Below, piece after piece: positions 7,052 through 62,568 of a stretch of 64,000 nt of DNA; the stretch's first letter is position 1, and each line of letters starts with the position of its first letter. This DNA comes from a virus. The position numbers and the translations under genes were made by a program. Below the pieces are notes generated by a model. It ran no database searches and was not told the origin of the DNA. It saw nothing but the letters and a program-made list of their open reading frames with translations. The DNA is taken from positions 1-64,000 of IMG/VR virus record IMGVR_UViG_3300032213_001381. One strand, 5' to 3'.

Positions 7052-7059
7052 TATAAATA
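7052..7059 (-). promoter_or_regulatory. TATTTATA box before fibre gene
   Basis: Coding-strand TATTTATA ends 4 nt before the ATG of the 1,190-residue fibre gene and lies just after a terminator. It is one of a recurrent set marking transcription-unit starts; promoter function is inferred. Confidence 0.45.
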
Positions 7060-13180: not shown

Positions 13181-13933
13181 CTATAATTTTATCTTTCGTT
13201 TGTGATATTTTATAGTAGTTCCACTCAAATTATATTTAATTGAAAGTTCTTTAATTGTATATTGATTGGATAATATGTCTTGATATAATTCATGTTTTAT
13301 TTTTTTAATATTATTTTTTGAAACGGATATGTTTGTTTTTCTGTTTTCATTCATTGGACCTTGTTTTTTACCTGTTTTATTATTATCATAAGAGTAATTT
13401 ATTTTTCTTGAAGATAAGTTATTTCTCCTCTCTTCATATTTTATAGTTCCAATTTCAATTCCATATTTTTCAACAAACCAATTTAAAGTAAATCTACCTA
13501 ATGCTTTTTGTTTTTGAATTATAATACTATCATTATTATGTTTTTTTCCAAACATAGGATTATTTTCTCCCGAATACATTTCAGATAATTGTTGTCTTAT
13601 AGTTTCTTTATTTGGATTATGTGTAAAATTATCCCCTCCTGAAGAACTTAATGCAATATTATAACCAATATTGTTTCTATAAGGTTGAAATGTATCTAAA
13701 TAATACTGTTCTCTTTCCAATAATATTTGTTCATCATTTAATTCTTCAATTACTTCAAATTTAAAATTATCTTTGCCGTAAAAATTCCATGAATTTTGTA
13801 ATTTTTTATTTATGTGAATATTTTTATTTAATTCATTTATATGTTCCCACCATCTTCTGTCTATATCTTTTGATGAACCGATGTAAAATTTTCCGTTTTT
13901 TAAATTTGTAATTTTGTAAATACCTATTTTCAT
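13181..13933 (-). CDS. GIY-YIG homing endonuclease, free-standing
   Basis: A 250-residue nuclease. The catalytic domain shows GIYKITN (residues 4-10), KFYIGSS (15-21), Arg26/Arg27 with His31, and the glutamate in LLEREQYYLD (71-80). Then comes a GENNPMFGKKHN segment (NUMOD3 type, a DNA-binding motif common in these enzymes), and near the C-terminus IKELSIKYNLSGTTIKYHKRK, a helix-turn-helix-like element. It sits alone behind the capsid-gene terminator, between capsid and small head genes. No flanking gene is split, so it is not intron-borne here but resembles the free-standing Seg-type genes of T4. A TATTTATG variant box occurs 7 nt before the ATG. It probably promotes its own spread by cutting phages that lack it. 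Confidence 0.9.
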   Translation of the reverse strand: MKIGIYKITNLKNGKFYIGSSKDIDRRWWEHINELNKNIHINKKLQNSWNFYGKDNFKFEVIEELNDEQILLEREQYYLDTFQPYRNNIGYNIALSSSGGDNFTHNPNKETIRQQLSEMYSGENNPMFGKKHNNDSIIIQKQKALGRFTLNWFVEKYGIEIGTIKYEERRNNLSSRKINYSYDNNKTGKKQGPMNENRKTNISVSKNNIKKIKHELYQDILSNQYTIKELSIKYNLSGTTIKYHKRKIKL

Positions 13934-24234: not shown

Positions 24235-25830
24235 TTACAATAACCAAGTTAGGTTTTCTTTTTTATCTGTAGTTTTTCCAACTGACATTTGCCATGCTTC
24301 TTTACTATTAATTGATTGTGCTTTATAAATGTTTTGAGAACCACCAATTCTTGTAATACCACCCAACATTGATCTATTTAAATCCATACTTTGTTGTCTT
24401 AACTTTAATGCTGTATCTCTTACCCATAATCCGATGCTCATTGCCATTACCAAGTCATCATTATAACCTTTCATTGCAGCTACTTTATTACCGTCCCAAA
24501 TAAACACGGACAATTCATCCAAAAATCTAAGCGATCTTACTTCTACTGATCTTTCTCTAAAATAAGTTTCTAACTTTGAAATTAATAATGGTCTAGTTTT
24601 TTGACTATTAGTAAAGCCAGGAATCATCTTCTTTTCATCTCTATTAACTTTATTCGTCAATTGTCTTTCTACGTCTACATATTGTAGATCTGCACTACTA
24701 TAGAACGTATTTGGATATTGTCTATCTATTATTTGTTGTAAAACTGCCCAACCAATATTCGCATTTTCTACAATTAATAAAGCATTATTATAATCTGTTG
24801 CAACACTTACCAACATGTTACCATAATCTTTAGTACCAATTTGTCCTTTATATTCGGCAACTTGTGTCAATGACTCTACATCAATAACTTGAAATGCACT
24901 ATAATCCGCACCATCACCTCTAGCAACGTCAGCACTAACTATATAATTTCTACTATAATCTGGATATTCCCATATCCAATAACCATGATCCAATCCTCTC
25001 ATTTCAATTGGATCTTTTACCTTGCTTTGTTTATAAAAATCAATTGTGGCAACATCAACAATTCCATTACCAGTAGTTGCAAAGTCACAATCACATTCTT
25101 GTGCTGCACCTTTTACACCTGATAGTTCGGTTTGTTTATCTCTCCAAGCTTGATCTCTTTCAGGATGTAAATGCCATGGAAGTCTAATTGTATTAAATTT
25201 ATTTTCCTTGGCTTCTGCCTTTACCCAAGTTTGATGAAAGAAATTACCAACACCATTTGGTGTACTTAACATGATTGCTCTACCACCAGTACTTAATGTA
25301 TATTGAGCCGATAACCAAATTTCTTCAATGTTATCAATGAATGCAGCTTCGTCAATAATCAACAATGACAATGCAGAAGAACGACCTGATGTACCGGCAG
25401 ATGAAACAGCTTTAATTTGTGAACCATTTGTCAATCTTAAACTTAATCTGTTGTCTTCTTGTTCTTTTACTTTTAACCAAGAAGGAAGATTGTCATTCGC
25501 AAATCTTACACGGGTTACAATTTCTTTAGATGTTTCTTGATTAATACTAATACAAAGAACATTTTTATCTTTGTGAAATACCATTAACCACAAACTATAT
25601 GCTGCGGTTAATGTACTAATACCCATTTGTCTAGACTTTAATATGATATTAAAATCATGTTCAACCAAGTCTGTTAAAGCTTCTTCTTGAAATGGATATA
25701 AATCAAAGTTTACAGTTCCACGAATAGGATGTTGAATCTTAACATACTTTTTCATGAAGTAAATTGGATCTACAAGACATTTCTTATATTCCTCTTTAAT
25801 TACTTCTTTAAGTGTTTTTGGTGTACTCAT
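24235..25830 (-). CDS. 17: Terminase large subunit, gp17-like
   Basis: A 531-residue DNA-packaging motor. The N-terminal ATPase has the Walker-A-like LKSRQMGIST (residues 64-73), Walker B LLIIDEAAF with Asp160-Glu161, and the LSTPNG coupling motif at 188-193. The C-terminal RNase H-type nuclease shows IVSADVARGDGADYSAF (Asp301), IVENANIG (Glu355) and GYNDDLVMA (Asp459), the catalytic acidic triad. Length is slightly below T4 gp17 (610). It overlaps the upstream zinc-finger gene by 4 nt (ATGA), implying coupled translation. Packaging by headful mechanism is expected from the family. Confidence 0.96.
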   Translation of the reverse strand: MSTPKTLKEVIKEEYKKCLVDPIYFMKKYVKIQHPIRGTVNFDLYPFQEEALTDLVEHDFNIILKSRQMGISTLTAAYSLWLMVFHKDKNVLCISINQETSKEIVTRVRFANDNLPSWLKVKEQEDNRLSLRLTNGSQIKAVSSAGTSGRSSALSLLIIDEAAFIDNIEEIWLSAQYTLSTGGRAIMLSTPNGVGNFFHQTWVKAEAKENKFNTIRLPWHLHPERDQAWRDKQTELSGVKGAAQECDCDFATTGNGIVDVATIDFYKQSKVKDPIEMRGLDHGYWIWEYPDYSRNYIVSADVARGDGADYSAFQVIDVESLTQVAEYKGQIGTKDYGNMLVSVATDYNNALLIVENANIGWAVLQQIIDRQYPNTFYSSADLQYVDVERQLTNKVNRDEKKMIPGFTNSQKTRPLLISKLETYFRERSVEVRSLRFLDELSVFIWDGNKVAAMKGYNDDLVMAMSIGLWVRDTALKLRQQSMDLNRSMLGGITRIGGSQNIYKAQSINSKEAWQMSVGKTTDKKENLTWLL

Positions 25831-26486
25831 TGATTTAATTTATCCAAAACCATTTGTCTGGCTTTAGTTTCAATTTCAGAATTATAATTTAATTTGGCCA
25901 ATTCTTCATTTGCCTTTGAAATATTTTCGTCAACATTTTTCAAATCTTCTTTTAGATCAGACAATACTTTTTGTATTTGATTTGTATTATCAGTCCAGAA
26001 TTCTTGACTTCCATCTTCATTAAAAAATTGTAACTTTTCTTCTGGATTTTTTTCTAAATATTCAATACTATCAGTAATATTTTTCTTAAAATCTTTCATT
26101 TCAGAAAGCATACTATTATAGATTTTATATCGTTCATAATCTGCATATACACCCAATGATTTCAATTTGCTATCAAATGAAATGCTACAATCATAACACT
26201 TGCCTGTTTTGGGATAAAATCTATCATCTAAATAATTGCCAAATTTCATATCTGCATTACAGATACTACATCTTTGATCAATTTTTATTTGTCCTAGTTT
26301 GGATACTTTTCTTTTGGTACCATTTTTCCAAACCCATTTATTTCCTTGACCGTCTTCCCATTCTTCACCTTCTTTTCTTTTACTGTTATTCAAGTTAGGA
26401 TCATAACCAACTTGAATAAATGGACGGTTTCCGTCAACATAATCTTTAACTATGTCAAGATTGCTTTTTCCTGTTGCTCTTTTCAT
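25827..26486 (-). CDS. Zinc-finger, coiled-coil protein upstream of terminase
   Basis: A 219-residue protein with a four-cysteine zinc finger, CSIC (Cys73, Cys76) and CYDC (Cys97, Cys100), after a Trp/Lys-rich basic segment (KWVWKNGTKRKVSK). The C-terminal half is helical, with likely coiled coils (SDLKEDLKNVDENISKANEEL). It overlaps both neighbours by 4 nt: the giant ligase-like gene upstream and the large terminase downstream. No small terminase (gp16) is recognisable elsewhere in the window, so this could be a DNA-binding packaging partner, but it does not look like T4 gp16 and the idea rests on position and the coiled coil only. Confidence 0.65.
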   Translation of the reverse strand: MKRATGKSNLDIVKDYVDGNRPFIQVGYDPNLNNSKRKEGEEWEDGQGNKWVWKNGTKRKVSKLGQIKIDQRCSICNADMKFGNYLDDRFYPKTGKCYDCSISFDSKLKSLGVYADYERYKIYNSMLSEMKDFKKNITDSIEYLEKNPEEKLQFFNEDGSQEFWTDNTNQIQKVLSDLKEDLKNVDENISKANEELAKLNYNSEIETKARQMVLDKLNQ

Positions 26487-29455
26487 AACTTTACTTTTAA
26501 TCTATCCAATTCCTTTTTGAAATCATCTAAGATTTCAGTTCTTTTGTTTTTATAACGAAAAGTATTACCTTTCACTAATTTAATTAGTTTTTCTAAAGTG
26601 TTAATGTCATTAAATGTTACACTTTTGCCAAATAAAAATTCAGCAATATCATCCATGTCAGAATAAACAGTTTTTATATTTTGTTTTTCTTGTTTACCCT
26701 TTACATTTGTTATAACATCCGCACTTTGAAGACCTTTTTTCCAATTAAATTGATATCTCTTCATCTTATTTGGATCTTCGGTAGGTTCATAACTATGTGA
26801 CATAATATTCATTAATAGAATATTTCTTAATGCGGCTTTATATTTTGATTCTGGTGCTCCAGATAAAGCCTTAATCATGAAATTTAAATCACCAATCATC
26901 AAATCAATTTGTACATATCCATCTTCATTTGGTATTGTTGTTGATTTTACTGAATTACCATTTTCATCTATGATAGGTACATTCAAGTGTAATTGATCTA
27001 ATCCTGTATTTATTTTATAAGCTGGTGTTGGAACATTTGATGGAACATTTGCTTCTATATGTTGTTTTAATTTTTCATAAAACATCTTTTTATCATAATC
27101 ATAATTGACACCAAGCAATTGATTTAATTGTTCTGTAGATACTGCAACATCAATATCCCCCAACACTGGTTTTGATTTATTTCCGATAATTTCATATTTC
27201 AATGAATCAAGATTCCATATTTTTAATCCATTTTTTACAGTAGAATCTAAATATTGTTTTGGTAAATCACTGTTTGCAGCTACTGCATTGCCACCTTCAG
27301 TAATTAGAAATTCTTTCAATATATCATTGACGATTTTATTTCCCAAATCAGCATGTTTTTTGATTTTATCAATAGATGCTTGAGTTTCTGGAGTAGTTGC
27401 TTTCTTTTCTTTCTTTGAATATTGTTCAATCATTTTTTCAGCATATTTGTCTTTTATAGCTTTGATAAATGATGCATAATCAAATCCTAAATCAGAAAGA
27501 ATACCATTTGCATCAAGAGTTTTTGCAAATCCTAAAACACCTGTAGTTAAATCTTTTAATTTAACATCCTGTGGATTTACACCACTATGTGCAGATAAAT
27601 TTGGATCAACAACAGTAATCTTTTTATTAAATAATTCAGCCAAAAAGTCTGCCAAATCTCTTAAAAATGTACGAGGACTATTGGATATCAATTTATCTAT
27701 AACATCTTTTCTTAACATTGGAGATACAATCTTACCATCTTTAAATTTAGCTCTTACACCTGTATCACCAATTCTAATATTAAGAACTTCTGCCAATGCA
27801 GAATACATTCCACCCATTGTAAATCCTTTTATACCTCTTTCTGGAGTAAATCTAGTAGCAAACCAATCTTTATATATTTTTGTAGTATACAATAAATCTA
27901 ATTGAACCCAAGTATCTTCTTCAATTTTAATTATAATTTGTTTACCATCAGATCTCTTTGCACTTTCAATATCAATGTAATTTTGACCACTAGTTTCAAT
28001 AAATTTAATTACATTCTTGATATATTCTTTCTTTATATCAGCCCCATCATCTTTTGAATCAATTGGTATAACAACCATTACATCAATATCACCATAAGTT
28101 ATTTGTTTTTTGTCATGTTGATCTTGTTTATAATAACCAGCTGAACCCAATATTTGATAATCCTTAATTGGAGCCAACGGTATATTACTTAAAAACATAT
28201 TCAAATCAGCTAAAAAATCTTTAAACTTTTCAGTTGATTTTTCAATTGTGTCAGGTGATAAAACTGTCTTGGATGTAAGTTCTGGTTTTAACCAACCACC
28301 TTCATCGATAGGTTGTTTATGTGCAGCTCTATTTGCAGCGCTGAATTTGGAACGAGAAACATACTTAATATCACCTTCTGGATGGGAGAATACATAACCC
28401 TCACCTCCAGGTTCATTTCCTATATACGATTTAATTTCACTATCTTGATTGTCTATTTGATTGATGATTTCATCTTTTACAGACATTATTTCTACAACAA
28501 CTTTCCATAAAGATTCAAATCCGTCACGATTACTACTAACATAATCAGTAATCTTCTTTTTCATTGCTCCTGTAAGACTACTTTGATCAATCCATTGTAG
28601 AAAATCATCACCGATATTCATTAATCCAGTATCAACTTTACTGTTCAAATATTTGTATAAAATATCGGAGAAATTAGTCATTTTCATGCTAGCTAATTTA
28701 GAAGGATTGATAAAATCATCTATATTTCTAGCATGTTTATTTATATAAAGTATAATATCTTTTAATCTTTTATCATTTACATCTGGTGGATTATTTACAG
28801 ATATTGGAGGTATTACTAATAATTGTTTACCTTGAAATACATTATAATTTGTAATTGCAGTTTCACTTCCAAAACTATCCACTTCTCTGTGAACTACAAC
28901 TGCAGCTTTACTTTGCGCAATCTTTATTCCTAATTCAGAATTGATATCAACTGAATAAGTTACAATATTTGGCTTGAAAACATATCGTCCATTTTCAATT
29001 AATGGAGTATTAAAATATAACAAATCTCCCTTAAAATAACCTCTAAATGTAGATGGAACTGCGGATTCAAATATTGAAAATGCATTTTTCATATTTTGAA
29101 CGAAAAATCTATATTCGTCAGTTTTAACACTTTTACCTCTATTCAAAAACATTTGTTCCAATTCGTCCGGAGAAGTTGGTCTACCATTATAACCTTTGGC
29201 AACAAATCCACTTTTATCTGTCAATACGAATTTACCTTCGTCATTTCTACCAAATACAACTGCAGGAGAACCATCCCATTTCAATGTGACATTTTTATAC
29301 CCCCCTTGTTCTAGTTCAATAAAACTTTTAATGGAACGAATTGCTCCTTTTGATCCTTCCCAAAAAATTAAATCTTCGGCATGATCTATACGGGTTGATT
29401 CGTTTATCAATATATTAGATACCAAAAATTGTTCTAAATTATTCAGCTTTATCAT
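26483..29455 (-). CDS. Ligase-like plus twin nucleotidyltransferase fusion
   Basis: A 990-residue protein with three apparent nucleotidyl-transfer domains. Residues 22-375 resemble a covalent nucleotidyltransferase (DNA/RNA ligase superfamily): LKWDGSPAVVFG with candidate Lys59 (KxDG), GDLLYF at 143-148, EGYVFS at 352-357 and the KYVSRSK lysines at 364-370. Residues 430-530 form a Pol-beta-type domain: LGSAG (436-440), GDIDVMV (455-461) and VQLDLL with Asp520. Residues 750-860 form a second: IIGNK, GDIDVAV (766-772) and VQIDLM with Asp851. The first domain resembles an uncharacterised phage family with a KYDGSP motif. The N-terminus MIKLNNLEQFLVSNILINE resembles the capsid-targeting tags here. 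It overlaps the flavoprotein gene by 17 nt and the zinc-finger gene by 4 nt. Role in RNA or DNA end repair or tagging is inferred. Confidence 0.75.
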   Translation of the reverse strand: MIKLNNLEQFLVSNILINESTRIDHAEDLIFWEGSKGAIRSIKSFIELEQGGYKNVTLKWDGSPAVVFGRNDEGKFVLTDKSGFVAKGYNGRPTSPDELEQMFLNRGKSVKTDEYRFFVQNMKNAFSIFESAVPSTFRGYFKGDLLYFNTPLIENGRYVFKPNIVTYSVDINSELGIKIAQSKAAVVVHREVDSFGSETAITNYNVFQGKQLLVIPPISVNNPPDVNDKRLKDIILYINKHARNIDDFINPSKLASMKMTNFSDILYKYLNSKVDTGLMNIGDDFLQWIDQSSLTGAMKKKITDYVSSNRDGFESLWKVVVEIMSVKDEIINQIDNQDSEIKSYIGNEPGGEGYVFSHPEGDIKYVSRSKFSAANRAAHKQPIDEGGWLKPELTSKTVLSPDTIEKSTEKFKDFLADLNMFLSNIPLAPIKDYQILGSAGYYKQDQHDKKQITYGDIDVMVVIPIDSKDDGADIKKEYIKNVIKFIETSGQNYIDIESAKRSDGKQIIIKIEEDTWVQLDLLYTTKIYKDWFATRFTPERGIKGFTMGGMYSALAEVLNIRIGDTGVRAKFKDGKIVSPMLRKDVIDKLISNSPRTFLRDLADFLAELFNKKITVVDPNLSAHSGVNPQDVKLKDLTTGVLGFAKTLDANGILSDLGFDYASFIKAIKDKYAEKMIEQYSKKEKKATTPETQASIDKIKKHADLGNKIVNDILKEFLITEGGNAVAANSDLPKQYLDSTVKNGLKIWNLDSLKYEIIGNKSKPVLGDIDVAVSTEQLNQLLGVNYDYDKKMFYEKLKQHIEANVPSNVPTPAYKINTGLDQLHLNVPIIDENGNSVKSTTIPNEDGYVQIDLMIGDLNFMIKALSGAPESKYKAALRNILLMNIMSHSYEPTEDPNKMKRYQFNWKKGLQSADVITNVKGKQEKQNIKTVYSDMDDIAEFLFGKSVTFNDINTLEKLIKLVKGNTFRYKNKRTEILDDFKKELDRLKVKL

Positions 29456-30221
29456 ATGGTTTTAAAAATGTTTTATCAAATACAGTTATAGCTTTATTAT
29501 ATGAACGAGTTGTTTCATCCAACATATTATCAGTAAATTGCCAGTTCCAAAATAATTCATTTGGTGTTTTGAATCCGAAAAATTGAAGTACTTCCTTTTG
29601 TGTTTCAGTTACATCTTTACCGTTCCAATTTTGTCCAGTTGCAATGAAACCCGCATCAATATCTTTTACTATATTTTTTTCTCCCAAATTACTGTGTCTA
29701 TTTTCAATCCAAGTTAATCTTTCAATTAATTTTTGATAATAACCATTTGCTTGTCCCCATCTTATACTAGCAAAAAATAAAACCGTATCACTTTCAAATA
29801 GTTCTTTACTTATTTTCCACAATTCATCATTCTTTTCATTAATACTAGCCCAACAACGATGATATCCACTTGGATTTTTTTCCTTGTCTTTTAATAAAGC
29901 TTTTGCAGTTCCACAGTGATTGCCACCAAATTCTCTATTGCTACTTACATTACCTTCACACGGAAATATATTTAGTTTGGTAGTGTCTATAAGAGTTACC
30001 TTTTCTTTACCCAATAAATCTTGAATTTTAGTAGCTAGTTGAGTACTCTTAGGCACATCTTCTTTATGTTGTGACCATCTATTACTGGTAGTCAATAATA
30101 GTACTTTATTCTTATTTCTTAAATAATCAATAGTTTTCTTATACTTTTTAGCATAAAAATCCATATCTTGTTCACTAGAAGGCAATTGTGCTTCTAATAA
30201 TAAGTCAGTTAGCTTAATCAT
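29439..30221 (-). CDS. Flavodoxin-fold NAD(P)H-dependent oxidoreductase-like protein
   Basis: A 260-residue protein with a flavodoxin-like core: KVLLLTTSNRW (residues 39-49, the phosphate-binding loop position of FMN reductases), KSTQLATKIQDLL, VTLIDTTKLNIFPCEG (75-90), SDTVLFFASIRWGQANGYYQKLIERL (144-169) and the late strand DAGFIATGQNW. Cys88, Cys103 and Cys123 recall iron-sulfur flavoproteins, but the full cysteine cluster is not present. The N-terminus is MIKLTDLLLE|AQ, the clearest of the capsid-targeting-like tags. It is the first gene of the unit leading to the ligase-like protein and terminase, with a TATTTATA box 7 nt before the ATG. Redox function follows from the fold; substrate unknown. 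Confidence 0.75.
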   Translation of the reverse strand: MIKLTDLLLEAQLPSSEQDMDFYAKKYKKTIDYLRNKNKVLLLTTSNRWSQHKEDVPKSTQLATKIQDLLGKEKVTLIDTTKLNIFPCEGNVSSNREFGGNHCGTAKALLKDKEKNPSGYHRCWASINEKNDELWKISKELFESDTVLFFASIRWGQANGYYQKLIERLTWIENRHSNLGEKNIVKDIDAGFIATGQNWNGKDVTETQKEVLQFFGFKTPNELFWNWQFTDNMLDETTRSYNKAITVFDKTFLKPYDKAE

Positions 30222-36689: not shown

Positions 36690-39600
36690 TTATACATAAT
36701 TAACTTTAGAGAACCCGTTTTCTTTCTTAATTTCAAGTCTATTGTCAACCATATCTCTCATACTGTCCAAATGACTAATAATCCACACGAAATCAAAATT
36801 AGTCTTTAAGAAAGCAAATAAAGCACCCATAGATGACAAGTTATCGGCATCTGCACATCCAAATCCTTCATCTATAGCTATAAAATTGGGTCTTGGTAGA
36901 TTGCTGATGTTAATTAACGCTACTCTCATAGCCAATGAACTAACAAATCGTTCCATACCACTAGCCAATTCTAGTGGCCAGCGTTTATCTTCATAATTAA
37001 TATGTGTAGTTACATTTTTACCATCAGTCTGTAAGATTACCGTAAATTCAACTATCTGGTTTAATATGTTATTAACTTCCTTTTCAATTGTTGGAAGAGC
37101 CTGACTAATCAATTCATATGGAATACCATCTCTAGAGATAGCATTTGTATATAATTGATATGCTTCATATTCAACTTCAAGTACCTTTACATCTTCAATT
37201 GACTTTTGAATTGTTTTTCTTTGTTCTTCTAATCCAGAAATCTTGGTATTATAACTAATAATGTTATTGTTCACATTCTTAATTTCAAAATCAATTGTTT
37301 TGATATTAGACTTAATTACATCAATTGTTTCTTTAATTGTCTTATTGAATTCAATCGCATCCTTGTTATTATAATATTCTTCAATCTGATTTTCAATATT
37401 AATAAGACTGTTCTGATCAGAACTAATCTTATTTGATATTTTTAGAATTTCATTATTTAATTTATTAATCTTGGATTGTGTTTCAACATGCAATTTATGC
37501 GTGTCATTATACTTTTTCCAATCATCTTTTATATAAGACAATTCATTTACTTTATTTTTAAGGTTTGTATATTCCCCAACAAGATTTTGAGCTTCAACTT
37601 TGTCCGATTCAAGTTCTTCTCTTGTTTTAATTGCATCTTTAACGAATACATTGGTTGTACAAAAAGTACAATTTGGATCATACTTATGTTCTTCCAATTT
37701 CTTTAATTTCTGTAATTTGGATGTAACAACAATCTTTTTCTTTTCAATACCTTGTTCTTTTTGACTCAATGAACTTTCTAATTCCTTAAGTGAATCATAC
37801 TTAGTTGTAATATCTTCAATATCATAATTCTTTATGATTTCATCGTATTCCTTAAATGTAGATTCAATAGATGATAATTGATTTTTATAAGAATCTAAAC
37901 TAGATGACTGTGTTGATATAGAATTACTCAATAAAACTTTCTTTGATTCAAGAGATACAATATCAACAATGTTACCATTAACATTGATAATTTTCTTTGT
38001 TTCTTCCAAAAGTCTTTCATTTTCAGATTCTCTTTTATCTGTTAATTTTTCTAAATTAACATTTTCATTTTTTAGCGAACCAGAAAAGTTCTCAATGTCA
38101 GAATTTAAATTCAATAACTTTTGAGTGTAATCAGTATTTTTAAAGTTCTTCAATAATGAATTGATTTCTTTGGTTTTATCAGACGCATCATTATATAAAC
38201 TATCAAATACGGTAAGTCCCATAAATTGAGCCAACAAATCTTTTCTTTCTGTTTGACCCATATCTACAAATGAACCTACTTTGTTATTCTGAATACTCAA
38301 TACAGTTAAAATAAAGTCATCATAAGTACCAACATAATCACGAATGATGTCATTAGTACTTCTACGAGCTTCTCCATTAAGTTCAACTACTTTACCACTC
38401 TCTTCTTTCCAGAACTTAACATCTACTTTAACATTACCTTTCTTATCTGCATTACCTTTTCTTTCAATAAAGAAATCTACACCATTAACTTCAAAATTAA
38501 ACTTACAACGGAATGACATCTTTTGTGTATTAAGAATATGAGATGCCTTAAATGCTCTATCACATTTATCAAAAATACAAAAAGATAAAGCAGACAATAT
38601 ACTTGATTTACCAGATGCGTTATTAGCAAATAGTCCAACTACATTATGCATTTTGGTAAAGTCAATAACATTTTCTTCACCATAACTAAACATATTATCA
38701 AATTCAAACTTCTTTGGTTTCCATCTGATATTTCTTACAACAGATTCTTTTTCCAAAGTTGCATTTAAATCCTTATTGATTTTATAAATCTTATCAAGTG
38801 TATCTTTTGAAGGATTAAAATTCTTATTGTTAAGATATTCTGTAATTAATTTATTTTGATAATCAACATCTGATACATCACTCAAATTAAAATTAGTATT
38901 ATCAATGATATTGCTAGATGATGAATTTGGTGAATCTACACGGACATAAGTCACTTCTGTAACATCAGATTTTTCTCTAATTGTTGACAATACAGATTTA
39001 ACTTCAGTCGCAACACTTTCAAAGCATTTCAATCTCAATCTTGCCTTTTTAGGCATATCAGAAATGTCAGTAAGCAATTTTCCTTTGCTTATTTCAGCTG
39101 TATAAAAACCATAATCATTTGGAATTTCAAAGTGTTTGAATACTTTGGTTTTTAAATCCCAGAATACAAATCCATGTCCTTTTAGTTCTTCTCCATGATT
39201 CTGTTGAATCAATGAACCTACATAGACAATGATTGGATCAGATTGGCTTAAAACTTGATGTCTGTGAATATCACCCAACAATACAATATCATGACCGTCA
39301 AAAATTTCATTTGTAATGGTTCTACTCGCAACTTTATATCCTACATCAGTAATTGCATTATTTACTGGTCCATGAAATAGAGCAATCTTGTAACGGGTTT
39401 CATTTAGATAAATCTTTGGAATATCCTTGAACTTGATATACTTATCTGGTTCATCAAATACGCTATAATGATTAAATAGAATATCTCCAAGAATATAAAG
39501 ACCTGAATCTTTTAGATAAAATAGATTTGTATGATTAATCGCATCAACAATAGGACTTAGACTATCCAATCTATTTTTATTAGCCAAAGTAGCATCATGA

Positions 39601-39875
39601 TTACCAGCGATTAATACGGTTGGTCTTCTGTCAGCAAGATTTTGTAGAAACTCTGTGGTGATCTTTACACATTCTGGTGAAAGATCACTCTTGGAATGTA
39701 AAACATCTCCTAAAACAGCAACTACAGTTTCTGCGGGTGTCCTTTCTACTGCTTTATACAATCTTTCAAATACTTGATTGTATTCATCGTGTCTTTTTGT
39801 AAGACGCAAATGAATATCAGCAATATGAAACACATTCTTGAACTCTTTTATATCCGATTTAAGATATTTTACCAT
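36690..39875 (-). CDS. SbcD-SbcC (gp47-gp46) single-chain recombination nuclease
   Basis: A 1,061-residue fusion of the two subunits of the Mre11-Rad50 / T4 gp47-gp46 complex, which resects DNA ends for recombination-dependent replication. Residues 14-310 are the phosphoesterase: ADIH (19-22), GDVLH (56-60), GNHD (91-94), HGP (168) and GDIHRH (201-206). After a short linker, the ATPase begins near 382: Walker A GLFANNASGKSS (414-425), two long coiled-coil arms with a zinc hook CTFC (Cys736, Cys739), the signature ASGMERF (971-977), Walker B FIAIDEGFG (998-1006) and the H-loop IISHLD (1032-1037). No stop or frameshift separates the parts. It follows the primase gene by 1 nt. Confidence 0.93.
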   Translation of the reverse strand: MVKYLKSDIKEFKNVFHIADIHLRLTKRHDEYNQVFERLYKAVERTPAETVVAVLGDVLHSKSDLSPECVKITTEFLQNLADRRPTVLIAGNHDATLANKNRLDSLSPIVDAINHTNLFYLKDSGLYILGDILFNHYSVFDEPDKYIKFKDIPKIYLNETRYKIALFHGPVNNAITDVGYKVASRTITNEIFDGHDIVLLGDIHRHQVLSQSDPIIVYVGSLIQQNHGEELKGHGFVFWDLKTKVFKHFEIPNDYGFYTAEISKGKLLTDISDMPKKARLRLKCFESVATEVKSVLSTIREKSDVTEVTYVRVDSPNSSSSNIIDNTNFNLSDVSDVDYQNKLITEYLNNKNFNPSKDTLDKIYKINKDLNATLEKESVVRNIRWKPKKFEFDNMFSYGEENVIDFTKMHNVVGLFANNASGKSSILSALSFCIFDKCDRAFKASHILNTQKMSFRCKFNFEVNGVDFFIERKGNADKKGNVKVDVKFWKEESGKVVELNGEARRSTNDIIRDYVGTYDDFILTVLSIQNNKVGSFVDMGQTERKDLLAQFMGLTVFDSLYNDASDKTKEINSLLKNFKNTDYTQKLLNLNSDIENFSGSLKNENVNLEKLTDKRESENERLLEETKKIINVNGNIVDIVSLESKKVLLSNSISTQSSSLDSYKNQLSSIESTFKEYDEIIKNYDIEDITTKYDSLKELESSLSQKEQGIEKKKIVVTSKLQKLKKLEEHKYDPNCTFCTTNVFVKDAIKTREELESDKVEAQNLVGEYTNLKNKVNELSYIKDDWKKYNDTHKLHVETQSKINKLNNEILKISNKISSDQNSLINIENQIEEYYNNKDAIEFNKTIKETIDVIKSNIKTIDFEIKNVNNNIISYNTKISGLEEQRKTIQKSIEDVKVLEVEYEAYQLYTNAISRDGIPYELISQALPTIEKEVNNILNQIVEFTVILQTDGKNVTTHINYEDKRWPLELASGMERFVSSLAMRVALINISNLPRPNFIAIDEGFGCADADNLSSMGALFAFLKTNFDFVWIISHLDSMRDMVDNRLEIKKENGFSKVNYV

Positions 39876-61954: not shown

Positions 61955-62437
61955 TTATTTAATCGTAACTTTTCTTATTTCAGGTGTCGCAGGCTTTACT
62001 TTATTGAGAGTAATTAATAGAATACCGTTTTCAAACGTGGCTGATACAGTATCTTTTTCTATGTTATCTCCCAAAGTAAATGATCTACGAAAACTAGATC
62101 GTTTTAATTCTCTTCTGATGTATTTTCCACCTTGAGAATCTGTAACATTTTTACTTTTACCACCGCTGACAGTGAGTACATTCTGTTCCACTTCAACATT
62201 TACATCTTGTTTACTTAAACCTGGAACTTCAGCTTCTATAACAACTTTATCACTGTAATCAATAACATCTACTCTTGGATACGATCCTTTTTCAAAAAAG
62301 TCTGCACCAAAGTCTTGACTAAAATTGGGAGCATTTGCTTTGAAGAATTCATCAAAAATTTGATCAAATGGTGTTAAAAACTCATCACGATGAACTGCAC
62401 GAAATAACGGATTTGTTTGATATTTTACTACTGACAT
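61955..62437 (-). CDS. Small heat-shock protein Hsp20
   Basis: A 160-residue alpha-crystallin-type chaperone. The ATG at 62437 (MSVVKYQTNPLF) is chosen because a GAAAGGAAA Shine-Dalgarno precedes it by about 8 nt; an in-frame start at 62500 lies within the leader. The alpha-crystallin domain runs from PRVDVIDYSDKVVIEAEVPG (residues 53-72) to FENGILLITLNK, containing the G-x-L motif; the C-terminal tail has the I-x-V anchor RKVTIK. Hsp20 genes are typical of aquatic T4-like phages and are thought to aid virion protein folding or host stress. A terminator follows, so it is a single-gene unit. Confidence 0.93.
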   Translation of the reverse strand: MSVVKYQTNPLFRAVHRDEFLTPFDQIFDEFFKANAPNFSQDFGADFFEKGSYPRVDVIDYSDKVVIEAEVPGLSKQDVNVEVEQNVLTVSGGKSKNVTDSQGGKYIRRELKRSSFRRSFTLGDNIEKDTVSATFENGILLITLNKVKPATPEIRKVTIK

Positions 62438-62568
62438 ATATATTTTTCCTTTCTTAAATGGTCTATTTAGACCCATTTTCATGTACTCTTTTTGGGACAT
62501 ACACGGATAACTGTTTTAGTCATCTAAATTATATATATCATTTAATTGAGAAAAAATTCAAATTTTTC

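Follow-up and report, generated by a model that had tools for sequence, protein, structure and literature searches.

A DUF6267-nucleotidyltransferase fusion protein of a T4-like phage as a possible virion-delivered end-repair enzyme

Results

A 990-residue protein with one ligase-like and two Pol-beta-type sites

The window analysed here is a stretch of 64,000 nucleotides (positions 1 to 64,000) of IMG/VR virus record IMGVR_UViG_3300032213_001381, a linear record of 68.9 kb that belongs to an aquatic T4-like myovirus. On its minus strand, at 26483-29455, a single open frame of 990 amino acids (aa) encodes a domain of the family DUF6267 with ligase-type motifs, followed by two nucleotidyltransferase (NTase) domains with Pol-beta-type signatures, NTase A and NTase B (Table 1). 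We tentatively propose, with somewhat less than even confidence, that this three-domain nucleotidyl-transfer protein is a virion-delivered end-repair enzyme that would add nucleotides and seal.

An initial annotation of the window had described an uninterrupted 990-residue frame with a KxDG motif at Lys59, later ligase-type motifs and two GDIDV sites, each with a downstream third aspartate. The frame was recovered as described, on the minus strand, and every motif lies at the residues claimed: KWDGSP at 59-64 (K59), GDLLYF at 143-148, EGYVFS at 352-357 and KYVSRSK at 364-370, then GDIDV at 455-459 and 766-770, with VQLD520 and VQID851. Forty-two close relatives were found in IMG/VR, their best segments being 85-99% identical to the protein. 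In an alignment of 18 close relatives (86-97% identity), K59/D61/G62, D144, E352/G353 and K364 are invariant, and so are both aspartate triads, D456/D458/D520 and D767/D769/D851. Because the proposed catalytic residues are invariant among relatives, the motifs are more than chance resemblances; the conservation that the initial annotation had expected extends beyond the close clade, to 58-60 relatives for DUF6267 and 46 sequences for NTase B. The ratio of nonsynonymous to synonymous substitution rates (dN/dS) is 0.08-0.13 over the whole gene, indicating purifying selection, and 0.06-0.09 for DUF6267, 0.08-0.18 for NTase A and 0.10-0.17 for NTase B (0.05-0.18 across the domains).

PDB sequence searches with the 990-aa protein and with alignment profiles A1, A3 and A4 returned no meaningful match. 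A match of the NTase part to Salmonella phage PHA46 (E 5) was discarded as chance, the PHA46 protein being a lysozyme. The joint alignment of all domains was left out of structure prediction, as it placed the NTases onto DUF6267.

Table 1. Features of the 990-aa gene and of the genes next to it, in window coordinates
Feature	Position	Strand	Evidence or remark
990-aa protein: DUF6267 - NTase A - NTase B	26483..29455	-	Full-length conservation in IMG/VR close clade; dN/dS about 0.1
N-terminal leader, residues 1-19, MIKLNNLEQFLVSNILINE then S20, capsid-targeting-like	29399..29455	-	Predicted local distance difference test score (pLDDT) < 50 for residues 1-20; matches widened leader pattern
DUF6267 ligase-like domain, residues 22-378	28322..29392	-	PF19782, E 2.9e-31; AlphaFold2 pLDDT 90; Foldseek
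Motif I, KWDGSP (K59-P64), predicted nucleotidyl-lysine	29264..29281	-	K59, D61, G62, P64 invariant in 58-60 relatives
GDLLYF (143-148), motif III-like	29012..29029	-	D144 invariant in 58-60 relatives
EGYV (352-355), motif IV-like	28391..28402	-	E352, G353, V355 invariant
KYVSR (364-368), motif V-like	28352..28366	-	K364, V366, R368 invariant; second Lys of KxK absent
NTase A, residues 405-612, diverged Pol-beta-type, GDIDV 455-459, D520	27620..28243	-	hhalign to NTase-B family; low-confidence model
NTase A third carboxylate, D520 (VQLD)	27896..27898	-	Clade-invariant
Flexible linker, about residues 697-726, LITE↓GGN at 717-723	27278..27367	-	pLDDT < 50 over most of 697-726 in the A+B model
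NTase B, residues 717-985, GDIDV 766-770, D851	26501..27307	-	Stand-alone-NTase hidden Markov model, 89-94 bits; Foldseek DNA polymerase beta, E 3.1e-5 (A+B model)
NTase B third carboxylate, D851 (VQID)	26903..26905	-	Invariant in 46 sequences
Upstream gene, 260 aa, flavodoxin/FMN-reductase-like by eye	29439..30221	-	Overlaps start of 990-aa gene by 17 bases
Downstream gene, 219 aa, no assigned function	25827..26486	-	4-base overlap with 990-aa gene
Large terminase gene, next after the 219-aa gene	24235-25830		

DUF6267 is a phage family with ligase-type motifs

Residues 22-378 are a clear member of Pfam DUF6267 (PF19782; 109.6 bits against a cut-off of 27), in agreement with the record-level search, and fall in phrog_455; the only other Pfam match at E <= 1 was a sub-threshold SAM-like one. 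The initial annotation had likened this domain to an uncharacterised phage family with KYDGSP, and that family is real: it is DUF6267/phrog_455, and Vibrio phage 2.275.O carries KYDGSP. It is named in no paper of the literature searched. An alignment-based scan of IMG/VR confirmed at least 482 relatives, while a scan of genome contigs from 84,980 bacterial and archaeal species found the locus in just one, on a single contig of a metagenome-assembled genome. DUF6267 is therefore essentially a phage family, and a cellular origin or a defence-island role is unlikely.

Across 58-60 relatives, mostly 22-53% identical, K59, D61, G62, P64, D144, H189, N271, K327, E352, G353, V355, K364, V366 and R368 are invariant. 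Read from the alignment, these invariants sit where motifs I (KxDG), III, IV (EGxV) and V of covalent nucleotidyltransferases are expected. The AlphaFold2 model of the domain (60 relatives) is confident, with a pLDDT of 90 and a predicted template-modelling score of 0.87; residues 1-20 and 382-395 are disordered, and a helical insertion occupies about residues 228-335. Foldseek against the PDB placed the adenylyltransferase domain of Candida tRNA ligase first (E 0.094), then DNA ligase 1; fungal Trl1, AsfvLIG and a Rhizobium phage ligase ranked lower, and none of these matches was significant. Against BFVD, DUF6267 proteins came first (E to 1e-25), several of them annotated as cytidyltransferase-like fusions, followed by RNA ligases (E 7e-3 and 1.2e-2) and DNA ligases. 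The profile of ATP-dependent RNA ligase, PF09414, gave no match in the 990-aa protein or in the 68.9-kb record, and hhalign failed as well. We thus call the domain ligase-like: the motifs are present, and the predicted fold is no more than suggestive of homology. Of the ligase-type domain in the initial annotation, the motif set, the confident fold and ligases as the best characterised neighbours stood; the E-values (PDB 0.094, BFVD 7e-3) fell below significance and profile comparisons to RNA ligases failed.

Two NTases of unequal divergence

A profile built from stand-alone NTases that adjoin DUF6267 in other phages matches residues 714-982 at 89-94 bits. In this NTase B family, the GDxD motif and the third aspartate are invariant in 46 sequences (G52, D53, D55 and D137 in aligned-segment numbering). 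Neither Pfam nor PHROGs recognises the family, and the NTase region has no Pfam family-X or helix-hairpin-helix (HhH) match at E <= 10. The model of A and B together is confident in domain B, and each of its 47 PDB Foldseek matches with E <= 0.001 is a DNA polymerase beta or lambda, the best being 7rbo (E 3.1e-5, probability 1.0). By model and motifs, domain B has the fold and signature of the Pol-beta superfamily.

With GDIDV and VQLD in register, hhalign matches NTase A to the NTase-B family (probability 87.6, E 3.5e-6); the simplest view is therefore that A arose as a diverged duplicate. A separate search of IMG/VR with NTase A found relatives in the close clade only. Of the two Pol-beta folds expected by the initial annotation, that of B is strongly supported; that of A is supported less firmly, as a diverged paralogue whose own model is poor. 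We also considered whether the NTases are RlaP proteins (PF10127); this identity was rejected, with no profile match and an hhalign probability of 0.2.

DUF6267 and the NTase family travel together

An NTase accompanies DUF6267 in 62/75 IMG/VR loci; in 39 it lies directly upstream, as a rule with ATGA overlaps, and in 23 it is fused. Conversely, DUF6267 is found in 56/64 NTase loci, and of the remaining 8, 3 are truncated by the end of the contig. Near-copies are numerous among these loci, which makes the counts non-independent. On the DUF6267 tree, the NTase-DUF6267 fusion arose independently at least 3 times, NTase-DUF6267-HIGH twice and the window's DUF6267-NTase-NTase once. The three-site arrangement is the window clade's form of a far wider two- or three-partner module. 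The third partner, a HIGH-type cytidylyltransferase, recurs: it is fused in loci L071, L102 and L106, adjacent in L059, and adjoins DUF6267 in most cyanophages examined. Its Pfam family PF01467 has no match in the window's 68.9-kb record, which is possibly incomplete. In relatives from large phages (L175, L189 and L215), the NTase family is clustered with KxDG proteins and a HIGH NTase.

Several observations were made alongside. In Flavobacterium phage immuto 3-5A (L155:6178-9811), proteins 181 and 182 comprise an NTase-B homologue and, after it, a protein of 907 aa whose sole annotation is NMN adenylyltransferase; the latter combines a second Pol-beta NTase with a HIGH domain and metalloprotease-like motifs (HEMIHH/HEIEH). 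A further unannotated KxDG...EGxx family (GxYGHLxHPFED...EKxDGQ...EGITF) occurs at L153:6215-8134 (Microcystis phage Mel-JY01), L175:882-2192, L189:3688-4968 and L215:824-2110; it is HIGH-fused in Mel-JY01 and lies near the NTase in large phages, and profile comparison to DUF6267 was negative. Another family, with TEKxxxSSF-type starts (a possible motif I), adjoins the NTase at L189:6650-9490, where it is HIGH-fused, L215:4858-6120 and L178:5923-7599. Finally, in L090-L096, L098, L099 and L103, DUF6267 lacks the NTase and keeps a long basic leader (MKIxDI...RRFRGPRKPR) that elsewhere, in L088, L089 and L097, precedes the NTase; this looks like the loss of the NTase from a former fusion.

Capsid-targeting-like leaders

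In T4, internal proteins carry short leaders of this kind; these proteins and Alt are trimmed by gp21, and IPI is injected along with the genome (PMC9958956). We modelled a leader pattern on the T4 capsid-targeting sequence, ending [LI]xE↓[AGS] (the arrow marks the putative cut). Stand-alone DUF6267 proteins, with leaders such as MRFNEIINE↓AEARIQHAED, fit it in 35/48 cases against a shuffle mean of 1.4, and so do 31/500 other open reading frames of the same loci, where shuffles gave 5.5 expected. The first version missed the LFEQF type and the 990-aa protein and was then widened, so that the wider pattern was not chosen blind. At the leader end of the 990-aa protein, INE↓S is a possible prohead-protease site, and the linker carries a possible processing site after E720. 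These sequence features suggest that the protein is packaged and processed, and they strengthen the initial annotation's guess that it is delivered with the DNA, within a reading that is only partly supported overall.

Among relatives, leaders are clearest in large T4-like phages. In L178, L189 and L215, MKHIKLFEQFINEA-type leaders stand at the start of many neighbouring genes, including those of an NTase, ligase-like proteins and a HIGH enzyme, and ESVNEA motifs are repeated inside some L175 and L215 proteins. Starts of the type MK[HY][VI]KLFEQF[IV]NEA, some with internal ESVNEA/ESVNEG repeats, were seen at L175:3349-4971, L215:6146-8521 and in many genes of L178. From these motifs, the leader- and ESVNEA-bearing proteins of large phages are likely head-packaged (poly)proteins processed by the prohead protease.

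Genomic setting

The 990-aa gene is part of a co-oriented gene run from tail sheath to terminase and overlaps the genes on both sides, by 17 bases upstream and 4 bases downstream. The product of the upstream 260-aa gene starts with a capsid-targeting-like MIKLTDLLLEA; the gene is kept in the clade and is also found in L102, at 58% identity. T4-like hallmarks are recognisable in the record, namely a gp23-type capsid protein, a T4-type terminase, sheath, a fused gp46/47-like protein and a prohead protease whose closest isolates are Microcystis phage Mel-JY01 (64%) and Flavobacterium phage immuto (54%).

Elsewhere on the minus strand of the window, a 1061-aa frame at 36690-39875 combines a metallophosphoesterase domain with an SMC/RAD50-type ATPase, apparently a fusion of SbcD and SbcC (gp47/gp46). 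A frame at 13181-13933 starting MKIGIYKITNLKNGKFYIGSSKD resembles a GIY-YIG (homing) endonuclease and lies among head genes, adjoining the major capsid gene, and a frame at 61955-62500 resembles a small heat-shock protein (Hsp20). The octamer TATTTATA (coding strand) is frequent 4-22 bases 5' of minus-strand genes, for example at 7052, 12278, 13171, 18384, 30229, 36668 and 59374, and is enriched in the window (29 observed, 18 expected); possibly it serves as a translation-start or promoter signal in the phage's host group.

Discussion

The reading that we tentatively prefer is as follows. DUF6267 would be a divergent covalent lysyl-nucleoside monophosphate (NMP), ligase-type nucleotidyltransferase. 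NTase B, perhaps with NTase A, would restore missing nucleotides at broken nucleic-acid ends, and DUF6267 would activate the 5' end via adenylylated Lys59 and then join. The substrate would be RNA, such as tRNAs cut by host anticodon nucleases, or alternatively nicked or gapped phage DNA; RNA appears the more likely, because the best ligase neighbours are tRNA and RNA ligases and host anticodon nucleases are a known pressure. The protein would probably be made late and be guided by its leader into the prohead; after trimming by the prohead protease it would be injected, and could so act ahead of phage gene expression. The overlapping genes in the sheath-terminase region count in support. The initial annotation had also proposed adding and sealing, an idea strengthened by the operon and fusion linkage, with its ligase half still below significance.

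Several results weigh against this proposal. Firstly, the structural similarity to ligases is weak (PDB E 0.094, template-modelling score about 0.15), motif V reads KxV rather than KxK, and hhalign of DUF6267 against phage RNA ligases and against the ligase-like proteins of Mel-JY01 and large phages gave no match, so that the KxDG, EGxV and HxxED resemblances are by eye only. Secondly, the case for a leader rests on a pattern that the 990-aa protein matches only in its wider version; cyanophage DUF6267 has no leader, and stand-alone NTases rarely fit (2/39). Thirdly, DUF6267 occurs in complete cyanophage genomes without such a Pol-beta NTase, and two Pol-beta NTases and HIGH occur in Flavobacterium phage immuto without DUF6267. 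The pair is thus not obligatory, and the partners are recurrent but exchangeable. Lastly, no kinase or phosphatase partner was recognised.

Comparison with known systems shows both the precedent and the distance. RlaP NTases accompany RNA ligases in phages and bacteria, are predicted to act in tRNA repair and have been proposed to restore nucleotides before sealing (PMC7824862). The pairing of RlaP with an ATP-dependent RNA ligase follows the same principle of a Pol-beta NTase linked to a ligase, but the RlaP motif is GSRAWGxxSxDSDYD, against LGSTGxxxTSGDLDxAV in the NTase family described here, and DUF6267 does not match PF09414. The adenylyltransferase domain of fungal tRNA ligase and phage or viral RNA ligases, the top PDB and BFVD neighbours outside DUF6267, share KxDG, EGxV and the motif-V lysine; they differ by KxV for KxK and by the helical insertion, and the E-values are not significant. 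In cyanophages DUF6267 directly precedes a cytidylyltransferase, and within phrog_455 it is fused to one; the cyanophage members are stand-alone, without leader and without a Pol-beta NTase, whereas in the 990-aa protein the domain is fused ahead of two NTases. The T4 internal head proteins and Alt have in common with it a short N-terminal leader ending [LI]xE↓[AGS], a feature that unrelated proteins within one phage have in common (PMC9958956); otherwise they are different proteins. Polyvalent proteins of phages and plasmids likewise carry several disparate catalytic domains per polypeptide and are likely injected (PMC5512222).

Because the NTase resembles polymerase beta, DNA gap repair is a real rival, if an unlikely one. 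Here the protein, carried in the head, would be a gap-filling and nick-sealing kit that mends the phage genome on entry, acting in the manner of polymerase beta together with a DNA ligase (or as in bacterial end joining). DNA polymerase beta and family X are the closest solved structures to the NTase model and share its GS..GDxD..D signature, DNA ligases are among the structural neighbours of DUF6267, and the gene lies near that for terminase. However, identity to family X is about 12%, Pfam recognises no 8-kDa lyase or HhH domain, and among ligases it is the tRNA/RNA ligases that come nearest to DUF6267. Polymerase-beta entries are moreover so numerous in the PDB that the Foldseek ranking is uninformative on DNA versus RNA.

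Less probable again is a tagging or modification machine, in which the NTases, with HIGH in relatives, would put NMP on host proteins, tRNA ends or a small molecule, and DUF6267 would cap or transfer rather than ligate. KxDG and EGxV are compatible with capping-type enzymes, HIGH enzymes usually produce nucleotide conjugates, cyanophage DUF6267 pairs with HIGH alone, and Pol-beta NTases are listed among the protein-modifying domains of injected phage polyvalent proteins (PMC5512222). Foldseek favours polymerase-like NTases and ligases, though, and an acceptor-binding domain is not recognisable. That the domains are catalytically dead and structural in head or tail, as a gene among virion genes might suggest, is very improbable given the low dN/dS and the invariance of DUF6267 and NTase B catalytic residues over very diverged sequences. 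Hardly credible at all is a chance grouping of unrelated enzymes by accident of gene order: the pair is indeed not obligatory, but its adjacency or fusion in the loci counted above largely refutes this already, as do the repeated independent fusions and several domain orders.

Returning to virion-delivered adding and sealing, a bolder version, which we consider rather unlikely, is that the Pol-beta family, DUF6267 and the HIGH-type enzyme form an unrecognised, widespread kit, packaged in heads, processed by prohead protease and injected with the DNA, that rebuilds and seals broken nucleic-acid ends ahead of any phage gene expression; in the window clade it would be one polyprotein, maybe cut at E720↓G721.

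What this analysis adds is a Pol-beta family listed in neither Pfam nor PHROGs, the close association of that family with a widespread ligase-like orphan, and a testable delivery hypothesis. Marine cyanophages and other T4-like phages of aquatic habitats commonly carry DUF6267, which has been functionally an orphan; the NTase linkage and the recurring HIGH partner give it a concrete, testable function. If the proteins are injected, phages would import a ready-made end-repair machine against nuclease-based defences, and new ligases and end-tailing enzymes could be drawn from the family.

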